Assembly: GCA_035516965.1 (NCBI GenBank) | Contig: DATIZR010000111.1 | Location: 1-64,000 of the forward strand | Reading direction: 5' to 3' | Length of the DNA stretch: 64,000 nucleotides | DNA from: Nitrospirota bacterium | GTDB lineage: Bacteria; Nitrospirota; UBA9217 | In this document: piece after piece, positions 55,363 to 60,043 of the stretch | Layout: every line of letters begins with the position of its first letter | How positions within the stretch are numbered: the first letter of the stretch is position 1 | Program-made: the position numbers and the translations under genes | Notes under the pieces: generated by a model | What the model was told of the DNA's origin: nothing | Seen by the model: the letters and a program-made list of their open reading frames with translations, nothing else | Database searches by the model: none

Positions 55363-55391
55363 TTGACCGCTGTTGCGCCGATATGTTATTG
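55363..55391 (+). promoter_or_regulatory. Possible promoter of the GAF-PP2C gene
   Basis: TTGACC (55363-55368) is clear. The -10 is weak: TGTTAT (55384-55389, 15-base spacing) or TTATTG (55386-55391, 17-base spacing). The ATG at 55399 stands 8-10 bases after, and no Shine-Dalgarno sequence is present. Confidence 0.4.
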
Positions 55392-55398
55392 TTTCTCC

Positions 55399-56682
55399 AT
55401 GGCAAAGTCCGCTGCGATCATCCGGCTCGAACAGAAGATACAGCGCCTTCATACCCTCATCGACGTCAACAGCCTCATCAGTTCCTCGCTCAACCTGGAC
55501 CAGATCCTCGAGAACGTGATGACCATATCGAAGCAGGTCATGAATGCCGATGCGTCCAGCCTGATGCTGATCGACGAGAAGACGAACGAGCTCGTGTACC
55601 AGGTGGCCCTGGGGAGCGTCGGCGAGAAGCTCAAGCAGGAGTTCCGGCTCAATCTGGGGCAGGGGATCGCGGGAACGGTGGCGCAGGAAGGGAAGCCACT
55701 CCTGCTCGAGGACGCCTATACCCACCCGAAGTTCTTCCGAGGCCATGACGAGGCGACCGGCTACCGCACGAAATCCATGATCACGGTGCCGCTCATGGTC
55801 GGCGACCGGATCACCGGCGTTGCCCAGGTGATAAACCGGCTGGATGACAGGCCCTTTGACAAGGATGACCTGGAGCTCTTCATCGCGCTCTGCAGCATGG
55901 CGGCGATCGCGATCGAGAACGCAAAAATGCACCGCAGCCTCATGGAGAAGCAGCGGCTCGTGAAGGACATGGAATTCGCCCGGACCGTGCAGGAGAGCTT
56001 CCTCCCGCAGCAGGCGCCGGAGATCGCGAACTACCGCTTCAGTGCCCACTACACGCCGGCCCAGGAAGTGGGCGGTGATTTCTATGATTTTATCCGCCTC
56101 GACCGGGAGCGGACCGGCATCGTGATCGGCGACGTCTCGGGCAAGGGGGTTCCCGCGGCCCTTTACATGGCCAAGCTCGGGAGCGATCTCAGGACCCTTG
56201 CCTTCACCGAAGGGGACCCGGCGTCGGCGCTCCGGCAGCTGAATGCCGTCCTGGTCGAGCGGGGCCGGCGAGGCATGTTCGCCACGCTGCTCTATATCGA
56301 GCTCGATTCCGCGGCAGGGTCCGTCACCCTGTCCAACGCAGGGCATTTGCCGCCGCTCGTTAGAAAAGCAGGCGGTGCGGTGGAGAGGCTGTCCGGGGCC
56401 GGTGGTGCGCCGCTCGGCATTCTCGGAGGTATTCAGTTCGGACAGGAAACGAAGACCCTGGAGCCGGGCGACCTGATGGTCCTTTACACGGACGGGATCA
56501 TCGAGGCCATGAATGCCGCTGGCGAGCAGTACGGGTATGAACGCTTCGAAGAGATCGTCCGCGCGGGCCCGTCTGATCCTGATGCCGTGAAATCGGCGAT
56601 CCTTGCCGACGTGAATCGTTTTACCGGACTGAGCCCGCAGCATGACGATATGACGCTTGTCTGCTTCGGGGCGCTGACGTAA
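55399..56682 (+). CDS. GAF-domain PP2C phosphatase (RsbU/SpoIIE type)
   Basis: 427 residues. A coiled start (LEQKIQRLHTLIDVNSLISS) leads into a GAF domain (about 30-175; LGQGIAGTVAQEGKPLLLEDA, SMITVPLMVGDRITGVAQV). The PP2C domain (about 195-427) has VGGDFYDF, IGDVSGKGVPAALYM, LSNAGHLPPLV and LYTDGIIEA, with the metal-binding Asp residues present. It should dephosphorylate a STAS protein in answer to a GAF-sensed signal. It begins a run of partner-switch genes leading into mlaE. Confidence 0.92.
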   Translation: MAKSAAIIRLEQKIQRLHTLIDVNSLISSSLNLDQILENVMTISKQVMNADASSLMLIDEKTNELVYQVALGSVGEKLKQEFRLNLGQGIAGTVAQEGKPLLLEDAYTHPKFFRGHDEATGYRTKSMITVPLMVGDRITGVAQVINRLDDRPFDKDDLELFIALCSMAAIAIENAKMHRSLMEKQRLVKDMEFARTVQESFLPQQAPEIANYRFSAHYTPAQEVGGDFYDFIRLDRERTGIVIGDVSGKGVPAALYMAKLGSDLRTLAFTEGDPASALRQLNAVLVERGRRGMFATLLYIELDSAAGSVTLSNAGHLPPLVRKAGGAVERLSGAGGAPLGILGGIQFGQETKTLEPGDLMVLYTDGIIEAMNAAGEQYGYERFEEIVRAGPSDPDAVKSAILADVNRFTGLSPQHDDMTLVCFGALT

Positions 56683-56705
56683 CGGAACACCAGGATGGAA
56701 AACCG

Positions 56706-57140
56706 ATGGCGGACAGCAAACAACGGGGTCCCGACGTCGTCTCCCTCACCGTCCCGAGCCACCCCAAGTTCCTCTATGTGGTGCGGAGCGCGGCCTATCC
56801 CGTTGTGATTGAAGCAGGCTTCAGCAGAAAAGAGGCACGCAGGATCGTTCTCGCCCTCGATGAGGCATGCTCCAACATCATCCGGCATGCCTATGAGGGC
56901 GATCCGGAGGGGAAGATCTCCCTTACCCTGACCGTGACCGGCACCGAGCTCCTCATAGAGCTCCGGGACACGGGCAAGCAGGTGGATATAACGAAGATCG
57001 CCCCGCGTGATTTGAAGGACATCCGGCCGGGCGGGCTCGGCACGCATTTCATCAATGCCGTGTTCGACACGGTGCGGTATGATACCAGCGGGCGGGAAGG
57101 AACGCTGCTGACGCTGCAGAAGAAGAGACCGTGCGCTTGA
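56706..57140 (+). CDS. RsbW-type serine kinase/anti-sigma factor-like ATPase
   Basis: 144 residues of the HATPase_c fold. The N box is LDEACSNIIRHAY (about 53), and LRDTGKQVDI and GLGTHFINAVFDTV are the later ATP-binding parts. Such proteins phosphorylate a Ser in a partner STAS protein and bind it or a sigma factor. No sigma factor gene is near. It lies 23 bases after the phosphatase and 12 before the STAS gene. Confidence 0.9.
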   Translation: MADSKQRGPDVVSLTVPSHPKFLYVVRSAAYPVVIEAGFSRKEARRIVLALDEACSNIIRHAYEGDPEGKISLTLTVTGTELLIELRDTGKQVDITKIAPRDLKDIRPGGLGTHFINAVFDTVRYDTSGREGTLLTLQKKRPCA

Positions 57141-57152
57141 CGGGAGAGCGGC

Positions 57153-57500
57153 ATGAAAGTCGAGATCACGAGCGAAATGACCGGCACCGGGTTCCTGCTC
57201 AGGCTCAAGGGCGACGTTGACATGAGCTCCTCCTCCGATGTCCGCATCGCCCTGGGCGAAGTGTTCCGGCAGGGCGGCAAGGGGATCAGGGCGCTCTTCG
57301 TCGACCTGTCCCAGGTCCGGTACATGGACAGCTCGGGCATCGCAACGCTCGTGGAGGCGATGCAGACCTGCATGAAGCTGGGAGCCCGTCTCCGCCTCAT
57401 CGACCTGAGCCCGGCGGTCCGCGACGTGTTCGAGCTTGCGCGGCTCGCGAGCATCTTCGAGATATTCCCGTCCGTGGACGAAGCGATCAAGGGACTCTGA
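57153..57500 (+). CDS. STAS-domain protein (anti-sigma antagonist or MlaB-like)
   Basis: 115 residues. The phosphorylatable position is intact in YMDSSGIATLVEAM (Ser about 60). The C-terminal helix (AVRDVFELARLASIFEIF) is that of anti-sigma antagonists. In E. coli the Mla transporter has a STAS subunit, MlaB, encoded beside MlaF/MlaE; here this STAS gene directly precedes mlaE (34 bases). It may therefore link the phosphatase/kinase pair to the transporter. Confidence 0.9.
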   Translation: MKVEITSEMTGTGFLLRLKGDVDMSSSSDVRIALGEVFRQGGKGIRALFVDLSQVRYMDSSGIATLVEAMQTCMKLGARLRLIDLSPAVRDVFELARLASIFEIFPSVDEAIKGL

Positions 57501-57534
57501 GGACGCGGAGCGGGAGGAAGCGGTCAGAACCGCG

Positions 57535-58323
57535 ATGAAGAGCCTTTTCGGACATATCGGCAGGAAGTTCATTACGTTCCTGCAGGACCTCTCGAGCATT
57601 GTCTCCCTGTTCTTCGAAACGATGGTGCAATCCTTCGCGCTGCTGCAGGACCGGAAGAAGCTCAGGGAGGCGCATCTCCTGAAGCACGTCGACGAGATCG
57701 GGACCCAGTCGCTGCCGCTGGTCCTGGCCGTGGCCGCGCTGCTCGGCATCGCGATCACCGTGCTCGTCTCCTACGAATTGAAGGAAGTGGGCGCGCTCGC
57801 CTATCTTCCCGGCTTCGTGGCGGTGGCCATCTTCCGGGAAATGGGGCCGCTCCTCACGGCCATGATCGTGGCGGGAAGAGTGGGTGCCGCGTTCACGGCG
57901 CGGATCGGCACGATGAGGGTCTCCGAGGAGATCCTCGCGCTCGAGACCATGGCGATCAATCCAGTCCGGTTCCTCGTTGTCCAGCGATTCGTCGCGCTGC
58001 TCCTCGCGCTGCCGGCGCTCATCCTGATCGCCAACTTCACGTCGATCGTCGGGGGGTTCCTCTTCGGCGCGACGAGGCTCGGCATCCGGCCCGACACCTA
58101 CGTGCGGGAGACCCTCGATGTGCTGACGTTCACCGACGTCTCTTCGGGCATCGTCAAGGGGATCGTTTCCGCCGTGGTGATCGTCATGGTCGGCTGCTAC
58201 CGGGGGCTGGTGGTCGAGGGCGGCGCCGAGGAAGTGGGCAGGTCGACCATGCTCTCCGTCGTCTCCTGCACGCTCGCGATCATCATGCTGGACACGGTCA
58301 TGACGGCGGCCTTCTACGGGTAA
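57535..58323 (+). CDS. mlaE: MlaE-family lipid ABC transporter permease
   Basis: 262 residues with five or six membrane spans. EMGPLLTAMIVAGRVGAAFTARIGTM (in short pieces) and ALETMAINPVRFLVVQRF are MlaE signatures. It moves phospholipid between the outer and inner membranes with MlaF and MlaD. The start at 57535 has only a distant GGAGG (17 bases). Ends three bases before mlaF. Confidence 0.92.
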   Translation: MKSLFGHIGRKFITFLQDLSSIVSLFFETMVQSFALLQDRKKLREAHLLKHVDEIGTQSLPLVLAVAALLGIAITVLVSYELKEVGALAYLPGFVAVAIFREMGPLLTAMIVAGRVGAAFTARIGTMRVSEEILALETMAINPVRFLVVQRFVALLLALPALILIANFTSIVGGFLFGATRLGIRPDTYVRETLDVLTFTDVSSGIVKGIVSAVVIVMVGCYRGLVVEGGAEEVGRSTMLSVVSCTLAIIMLDTVMTAAFYG

Positions 58324-58326
58324 GGC

Positions 58327-59112
58327 ATGATCGCAATCGAGAACATCAAAAAGGGTTACGGCGGCCGGGACGTGCTCGATGGAGTGAGCTTCGTTGCGGA
58401 GCGAAAGAAGATCACCCATATCTTCGGCACGAGCGGGGGAGGCAAGAGCACGCTCCTCAAGATCATGATCGGCGCGCTCAAACCAGACTCCGGAAGGGTG
58501 CTTGCCGGCGATTCGGAGCTCACGAAGCTCGAGGGGAGGCAGCTGGACCCCTTCCGCAAGAAGATCGGCGTGCTGTTCCAGCATGGGGCGCTGATCAATT
58601 CGCTGACCGTCGGCCAGAACGTGGCGCTCCCGATCCGCGAGCACACGACCCTGGACGACAATATCATCAAGATCATGGTAAAGATGAAGCTGGAGCTGGT
58701 GGGCCTGCGCGACTTCGAGGACCTCTTTCCCGGGCATCTGTCGGGGGGGATGCAGAAACGGGTCGCGCTTGCCCGGGCGATCGCCCTGGACCCCGAGATC
58801 GTCTTCTTCGACGAGCCGACATCCGGGCTCGATCCCATCGTCGCCGCGGTCATCACCAAGCTGATCGCCGACCTGAACCGGCTTCTGGGCATCACCTGCA
58901 TCGTGGTCACTCATGCCGTGGAGGAGGCAATGAGGATCGCGGACAAGATCGTGATCCTCTACCGGGGGAAAGTGCTGGCCCAGGGGACTCCCCAGGAGAT
59001 CCGGAGCAGCAGCGATCCCCTCGTCCAGCAGTTCATCACCGGCAGCCCCGACGGTCCGATCTCGTTCCGGGCATCGAGCAGAGATTATCGGGAAGACCTG
59101 CTGATCGGATGA
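58327..59112 (+). CDS. mlaF: MlaF-family lipid ABC transporter ATPase
   Basis: 261 residues. Walker A GTSGGGKSTLL, Q-loop LFQHGALINSLTV, signature LSGGMQKRVALARAIA, Walker B VFFDEPTSGLDP and switch VVTHAVEEA are all present. It powers MlaE. No STAS domain is fused, consistent with the separate upstream STAS gene acting as the subunit. Confidence 0.94.
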   Translation: MIAIENIKKGYGGRDVLDGVSFVAERKKITHIFGTSGGGKSTLLKIMIGALKPDSGRVLAGDSELTKLEGRQLDPFRKKIGVLFQHGALINSLTVGQNVALPIREHTTLDDNIIKIMVKMKLELVGLRDFEDLFPGHLSGGMQKRVALARAIALDPEIVFFDEPTSGLDPIVAAVITKLIADLNRLLGITCIVVTHAVEEAMRIADKIVILYRGKVLAQGTPQEIRSSSDPLVQQFITGSPDGPISFRASSRDYREDLLIG

Positions 59113-59171
59113 ATCATACATTACGCGACGGGGCCTACGGGCCGCGGAGAAGCTCAACAACGAAAATGTGA

Positions 59172-59224
59172 GCTGAGCCAGGTTCAGCCGTTTTCCAGCG
59201 TCACCGCGGCCCGGAGGCCGTTTT
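59172..59224 (+). promoter_or_regulatory. Two small hairpins with T-runs between mlaF and mlaD
   Basis: gctga (59172-59176) pairs with tcagc (59184-59188), followed by cgtttt; cggcc (59207-59211) pairs with ggccg (59216-59220), followed by tttt. Each is a weak terminator-like unit in the 130-base gap, perhaps lowering mlaD expression relative to mlaEF. Confidence 0.3.
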
Positions 59225-59242
59225 CTTCGTTGAGGTGAAAGA

Positions 59243-60043
59243 ATGGATTACCGCCGCACCGAGATCCGGGCGGGCATTTTTCTCCTGCTCGCCTTCGTGA
59301 TCCTCGTCATCATGGTCTTCGCCGTGAGCGATGTCCAGAGCCTCTTCAAGAAGAAGAAGGAGGTCAGCGTCCTTTTTGCTTTCAGCGACGGCATCGAGAA
59401 GAACGCGCCCGTGCGGTACGCCGGGATGAAGGTCGGCAAGGTGGAGAACGTCCGCGTAGCGCCCGCGCAGAACGACCGGATCGAGGTGACGCTGAGCGTG
59501 TACAGCGACACCGCCATTCAGAAGGACACCCGGGCCGCGATCAAGACCCTGGGCCTCGTGGGAGGCAAGTACGTGGAGCTGAGCGGCGGGACGCCCGGGT
59601 CGAGCCTGCTCGGACCGAACGAGTCGCTGGTGGGGGAGGAGCCGCTCAAGCTCGAGGACGTGACCAAGGCCGCCCTCGACGTGGTCGCGAAGCTCCAGAA
59701 CATCGCGACCAACCTGAACCGGGCGCTGGGAGACCCCGAGCTCGCGAGATCCCTCAAGACGACGGTCCAGAACCTGCAGGAGGCATCGGGGAACATCAAG
59801 GTCATGACTGCCAGCAAGGACGACGTTGCCCAGACGCTCAAGAATCTGCCCGCCCTCGTGAAGAAGCTCGATGAAAGCGCAACCAGCCTTCAGGCATTGA
59901 CCAAAAAAACGGACGCCCTCGTGGGGGAGAACAAGAAGAACGTCGACGCCATGATGCAGAGCCTCCGCGACACGGCGCAGAACCTCAAGGAGACCACGGA
60001 TGACGTGAAGAGCCATCCCTGGAAACTGCTCCGGAAACCGTAG
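59243..60043 (+). CDS. mlaD: MlaD-type MCE-domain substrate-binding protein
   Basis: 266 residues. One N-terminal membrane span (about 8-28) anchors it, then the MCE domain (VSVLFAFSDGIEKNAPVRYAGMKVGKV in pieces, and LGLVGGKYVELSGG). The C-terminal third is coiled (LNRALGDPELARSLKTTVQNLQ). It forms the periplasmic ring receiving lipids. GAGGTG precedes the ATG. No mlaC or mlaA homologue is nearby. Confidence 0.92.
   Translation: MDYRRTEIRAGIFLLLAFVILVIMVFAVSDVQSLFKKKKEVSVLFAFSDGIEKNAPVRYAGMKVGKVENVRVAPAQNDRIEVTLSVYSDTAIQKDTRAAIKTLGLVGGKYVELSGGTPGSSLLGPNESLVGEEPLKLEDVTKAALDVVAKLQNIATNLNRALGDPELARSLKTTVQNLQEASGNIKVMTASKDDVAQTLKNLPALVKKLDESATSLQALTKKTDALVGENKKNVDAMMQSLRDTAQNLKETTDDVKSHPWKLLRKP

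Follow-up and report, generated by a model that had tools for sequence, protein, structure and literature searches.

A probable partner-switching module with an Mla-type lipid transporter as output in a Nitrospirota bacterium

We describe a locus of six genes (55399–60043, + strand) in a stretch of 64,000 nucleotides, hereafter the window, from a Nitrospirota bacterium (assembly GCA_035516965.1, contig DATIZR010000111.1, positions 1 to 64,000). Genes for a Ser phosphatase, an RsbW-type Ser kinase and a STAS protein are followed by mlaE, mlaF and mlaD, which encode an Mla-type (MCE) lipid ATP-binding cassette (ABC) transporter. The locus probably represents a partner-switching module that has the transporter as output in place of a sigma factor, with the STAS protein as an MlaB equivalent that would switch between RsbW and the ATPase MlaF by Ser phosphorylation.

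Gene content of the locus

All six genes are on the + strand, and the gaps between them, from the phosphatase to mlaD, are 23, 12, 34, 3 and 130 bases. The initial annotation had reported this order, its single direction and the 34 bases between the STAS gene and mlaE, and domain searches and motifs agreed with it exactly. The first gene (55399..56682) encodes a SpoIIE/RsbU-type Ser phosphatase, with a GAF domain (~55492–55914, E-value 5e-20) and a PP2C domain (~56104–56667, SpoIIE/PP2C Pfam E-value 2e-52) carrying the metal motifs GGDFYD, GDVSGKG and DDMT. Its start is the ATG at 55399, and an in-frame TTG is found further upstream, at 55363. The RsbW/SpoIIAB-type Ser kinase (56706..57140; HATPase_c_2, PF13581, E-value 5e-25) has an intact N-box (E53xxxN57) and GGLG motif, both invariant in the kinase alignment. 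The STAS protein, our proposed MlaB-type subunit, is encoded at 57153..57500 (TIGR00377, above cut-off, E-value 6e-24) and has an RsbV/SpoIIAA-like fold.

The transporter genes are together in the same operon: mlaE (57535..58323) for an MlaE-family permease, mlaF (58327..59112) for an ABC ATPase, and mlaD (59243..60043) for an MCE-domain protein with a long, helical C-terminus. The best curated family for the ATPase was MlaF (PRK11831), with a score under the family cut-off. A second mlaE of the same genome (3.80 Mb, 97.7% complete) lies on another contig, together with mlaF and mlaD and without a STAS or kinase gene.

The STAS protein as a proposed MlaB equivalent

The STAS protein carries the motif Y-M-D-S-S-G (D59-S60-S61-G62), as noted initially for the phosphorylatable Ser of its SSG. 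The predicted phosphosite, Ser60 within DSSG (codon 57330..57332, +), aligns with Thr52 of E. coli MlaB and is invariant in 63 sequences. DSSG was present in all kinase-linked STAS proteins readable by motif search (n = 78), and at kinase-less loci with a readable motif the STAS still had DSSG or DSAG. The invariant Ala64 corresponds to Ala56 of MlaB, at a position occupied by Gly in the sigma-type STAS proteins compared; the motif here is GxA[TS]xxE, whereas sigma-type proteins of the B. subtilis module kind have GLG. The STAS shares 32% identity with E. coli MlaB across most of the MlaB length.

The predicted STAS fold was confident (predicted local distance difference test 93, predicted template modelling score (pTM) 0.88) and put Ser60 at the N-terminal end of a helix. 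The nearest structures were kinase complexes of SpoIIAA and RsbV, with a template modelling (TM) score of ~0.88 to SpoIIAA in the SpoIIAB complex. The fold also matched P. aeruginosa MlaB (TM 0.80 by target length).

In each of ten whole genomes, one STAS protein scored at least 113 bits and was mla-linked, and the next best scored at most 80 bits. In two genomes (G080 and G081; mla loci L106 and L109) the STAS gene precedes mlaE, the kinase is absent from the operon, and an mla-type PP2C-RsbW pair is found elsewhere, with no adjoining STAS. The sole high-scoring mla-type STAS of both genomes is the one before mlaE. Since the STAS stayed with mla when the pair left the operon, we favor the STAS as a part of the transporter, and the kinase and phosphatase as its controllers.

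Residues of the putative MlaF interface

In E. coli structures, MlaB Thr52 lies at the center of the MlaF interface, where Thr52 and Gln22 face MlaF K128 and T114, and where MlaF M127 and Y261 of the swapped tail face MlaB L55/L59/L90 (PMC7784689; PMC7367683). These four MlaF residues correspond to K121, T107, M120 (codon 58684..58686, +) and Y254 of the window MlaF. The C-terminal "handshake" extension is also present (59050..59109, +), reading DGPISFRASSRDYREDLLIG vs DGPVPFRYPAGDYHADLLPGS in E. coli, with Y254/L258/L259 in place of Y261/L265/L266. The paralogous MlaF of the same genome ends at GPITAD, without the handshake tail. In Nitrospirota, the MlaF of such paralogous operons without a STAS has neither this tail nor a hydrophobic residue 127.

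Among relatives, MlaF position 127 was M/I/L in 73/73 STAS-linked proteins and E/R/Q/A/D in 26/28 without a STAS, and position 261 was Tyr/Phe in 63/73 STAS-linked vs 0/28 unlinked proteins; these correlations are not phylogenetically independent and mostly reflect one deep contrast, because STAS linkage changes only ~3 times on the MlaE tree. The Lys at position 128, which contacts MlaB T52, was invariant.

Conservation of the gene order

Within Nitrospirota, we searched 61 genomes with a linked-kinase profile; 13 of them matched at E < 1e-40, each with the kinase directly upstream of a window-type MlaE. The remaining 48 genomes had no strong mla-type RsbW match to this profile, and the only weak match outside the 13 genomes (E-value 1e-14) was in an open frame of 938 residues. 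Ten further genomes of the same family with a window-type MlaE (G001–G004, G007–G011 and G013; 62–79% identical) keep phosphatase-kinase-STAS-mlaE, and in many same-family genomes the conserved order extends to hisS where the contig allows. Same-family genomes without the window-type MlaE also lacked the kinase. In two more distant Nitrospirota families PP2C-RsbW-STAS is kept before mlaE at 40–42% MlaE identity, with ~1.1 kb between STAS and mlaE in one of them.

For a wider sample, we searched 84,980 species genomes for MlaE relatives and took the best 80. PP2C-RsbW-STAS-MlaE was found in 45 of these, RsbW-STAS-MlaE in 22, STAS-MlaE in nine and none of these arrangements in four, fractions that are not valid for all MlaE because the relatives were picked by likeness to the window MlaE. 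The phyla represented were Nitrospirota, Calditrichota, KSB1, Hydrogenedentota, Auribacterota, Omnitrophota, Rhodothermota, Chlamydiota and Acidobacteriota, together with deltaproteobacterial, myxococcal and verrucomicrobial bins, and nearly all genomes were metagenome assemblies. The clustering is far beyond chance. Conservation in related genomes, which the initial annotation had left to be checked, is strong, and its refuting case, an order confined to this genome, does not apply: the kinase-STAS-MlaE order is kept in 67/80 relatives from ~10 phyla, and in all 13 kinase-bearing genomes among the 61 from Nitrospirota.

The KSB1/Calditrichota-type phylum had the mla-type kinase in ~60/82 genomes. 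STAS and MlaE stood right behind it in 30/30 of the best loci and in 8/10 lower-ranked ones (L228–L237), giving 38/40 loci checked; of the two exceptions, L229 had neither STAS nor MlaE, and L230 had a STAS and no MlaE. A second RsbW class from the same phylum (L218–L227, n = 10) had a low-scoring STAS with ISSAGLG in nine loci and MlaE in none. For the phylum of the genome of an acidobacterial locus, a sampled draw of 149 genomes held only two mla-linked loci, and the other RsbW matches examined in this draw were of a different class.

The phosphatase sensor varied by phylum, with FHA-GAF in Hydrogenedentota and Rhodothermota (L078, L079) and HAMP in Terriglobia (L100). Seven Acidobacteriota loci (L097, L107, L116, L119–L122) had RsbW-STAS-mlaEFD without an upstream PP2C, and an opposite-strand PP2C gene shortly downstream of mlaD. 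Four Omnitrophota loci (L075, L077, L081, L105) had another RsbW subtype before STAS-mlaE (SGRGVFLI in place of PGGLG, 83–94 bits) and a differing MlaF tail; here a kinase may have been recruited to the same STAS independently. A Hydrogenedentota bin encoded RsbW and STAS as one open reading frame, a natural kinase-substrate fusion, directly before mlaE (L065:5201–5986). One operon on a contig labelled Actinomycetota (L095) was near-identical to that of Calditrichota L104, and this contig is probably mis-binned.

Sigma factors and transport partners in the genome

Sigma-factor output was looked for genome-wide. Seven sigma-70 proteins were recognized, namely RpoD, an RpoD-like protein, two RpoS-like proteins, two extracytoplasmic function sigma factors and FliA, and no SigB/F/G-type sigma factor scored above cut-off in the whole 97.7% complete genome. 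The statement that no sigma factor is near thus holds for the window and, for the SigB/F/G types, for the entire genome; no output of this type was found. None of the other free-standing STAS proteins that we read in this genome carries DSSG. On another contig (C27; L134, L145), an AAA-type protein whose C-terminal domain is RsbW-like adjoins a STAS with INTLG in place of DSSG; this is a second, unrelated STAS/HATPase pair.

The genome had no match to PF04333 or PF05494, for MlaA and MlaC, and the same searches gave the control matches in E. coli and Caulobacter. With both MlaC and MlaA absent from the genome, the initial suggestion of retrograde transport of lipids, as understood for E. coli, is unsupported.

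In the 130-base gap between mlaF and mlaD, a GC-rich hairpin is followed by T-rich sequence (59206–59221), which could partly uncouple mlaD expression. Such sites occurred at near-chance frequency in a promoter and terminator scan, and an Rfam search gave no match.

Proposed mechanism and alternatives

In the mechanism we propose, the unphosphorylated STAS would dock on MlaF by the helix starting at Ser60, on a site formed by the MlaF helical subdomain and the C-terminal tail swapped in from the second MlaF. This docking would allow the complex to assemble and to hydrolyze ATP. The RsbW-type kinase would bind the same STAS face and phosphorylate Ser60, upon which the STAS would leave MlaF and transport would stop. 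The GAF-PP2C would sense a ligand through its GAF domain and remove the phosphate, turning transport on again. We propose this sign, with kinase-on as transporter-off and the phosphatase as reset, because in E. coli MlaB T52E shows less MlaF binding in pull-downs, MlaB is required for assembly, and with T52A the complex still assembles but has no ATPase activity (PMC5016091/PMC7367683).

The initial annotation had suggested that the STAS is both partner-switch substrate and transporter subunit. The alignment of Ser60 with Thr52, the MlaF tail and residue 127, the lack of a SigB/F-type sigma factor and the two genomes with a STAS left beside mla point to this double role; we infer STAS-MlaF binding, Ser60 phosphorylation, the sign of the effect and the GAF signal. 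Several observations weigh against the proposal. According to the authors of the E. coli study, the T52A data are at odds with simple phosphoregulation (PMC7367683). Two Omnitrophota MlaF without a linked STAS retain Met127, and the few linkage changes on the MlaE tree left 2 independent pairs (p = 1). In the predicted fold of a read-through RsbW-STAS, the domains were confident and their docking was not (pTM 0.63). The STAS, with its full-length SpoIIAA-like domain, reached 22.3 bits against the cut-off of 90 of the curated MlaB family NF033618; our claim is that it works like MlaB, not that it is a member of this family.

The same E. coli data bear on a reading without true partner exchange, in which the STAS, though phosphorylated, stays in the transporter for good as an MlaB-type subunit, and ATPase activity of the assembled complex is tuned by its phosphate or by the Ser hydroxyl. 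The T52A complex is intact yet without ATPase activity, and T52 contacts the invariant Lys of MlaF (K128), both as expected for such a subunit. This reading is nevertheless unlikely, as T52E lowers MlaF binding and as RsbW-type kinases characteristically grip the STAS at the phosphosite face, in competition with MlaF. We regard as quite improbable a classical switch, in which the STAS releases a sigma factor or other regulator bound by RsbW, with the mla genes as mere co-transcribed neighbors or targets. The STAS indeed resembles SpoIIAA/RsbV most in both fold and sequence, as the kinase does RsbW/SpoIIAB, and annotation pipelines would label these genes as anti-sigma genes. Against it stand the lack of a SigB/F/G-type sigma factor, the mla linkage held over ~10 phyla, the STAS remaining with mla where kinase and phosphatase leave, and an MlaF with the MlaB-binding tail only where a STAS is linked. 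The same parts would also fit a reversed signal flow, where the transporter reports the lipid state of the envelope to RsbW by binding or releasing the STAS, and free RsbW acts on another target; a second partner is usual for RsbW-type proteins. We give this very little credence, as none of the loci examined has a second target linked to the operon and as the sensory GAF (sometimes with FHA, or replaced by HAMP) belongs to the phosphatase, ahead of the switch.

Comparison with known systems

The locus shares with the SigB/SigF modules of B. subtilis (RsbU/SpoIIE - RsbW/SpoIIAB - RsbV/SpoIIAA) the PP2C-type phosphatase, the HATPase_c_2 Ser kinase and a DSSG STAS of the same fold. It differs from them in having no sigma factor and an ABC transporter as linked output. 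Partner switches with other than sigma-factor outputs are Bordetella BtrUVW, Pseudomonas SiaABCD and Vibrio SypE/SypA, which the present module resembles in this respect. None of the three is known to have a lipid ABC transporter as output, and here, unlike in them, the STAS itself would be a transporter subunit.

As in E. coli MlaFEDB, there are homologs of MlaE, MlaF and MCE/MlaD with a small STAS protein, the C-terminal extension and residue 127 of MlaF are kept, and Ser60 takes the position of Thr52. Unlike in E. coli, MlaA and MlaC are missing, the STAS is full-length SpoIIAA-like with its gene ahead of mlaE, the operon has a kinase and a phosphatase of its own, and Ser replaces Thr. The absence of MlaA and MlaC is shared with the minimal MlaEFD of the Veillonella type, which, unlike the present system, is without MlaB and has a shorter MlaF tail (PMC10665443). 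The same survey, using an MlaB profile, found MlaB mostly in Proteobacteria (PMC10665443), probably because a STAS of the present type scores too low to reach that profile.

MlaB Thr52 has been proposed as a phosphoregulatory site (PMC5016091; PMC7367683), a question called open in the latter paper. We found no earlier report of a link between a partner switch and an Mla transporter: a full-text search of openly licensed papers gave none on both RsbW and MlaE, none that brings together MlaB, STAS and partner switching, and no relevant ones combining wider terms.

Implications

On balance, we think that these loci represent an ancient, widespread class of Mla/MCE lipid transporters, in which a Ser kinase and phosphatase of their own switch transport on and off through an MlaB-type STAS whose partner alternates between RsbW and MlaF. 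The kinase-less MlaB of Proteobacteria may descend from this arrangement. Our results imply that MlaB-type STAS subunits are much more common than was concluded from the survey. With kinase, phosphatase, STAS substrate and transporter encoded side by side in operons from ~10 phyla, the question of MlaB phosphoregulation becomes directly testable. If the proposal is true, a lipid ABC transporter would be added to the known outputs of partner switches, with direct post-translational control of an ABC transporter by such a switch, and this would give a mechanism for switching such transporters on and off.

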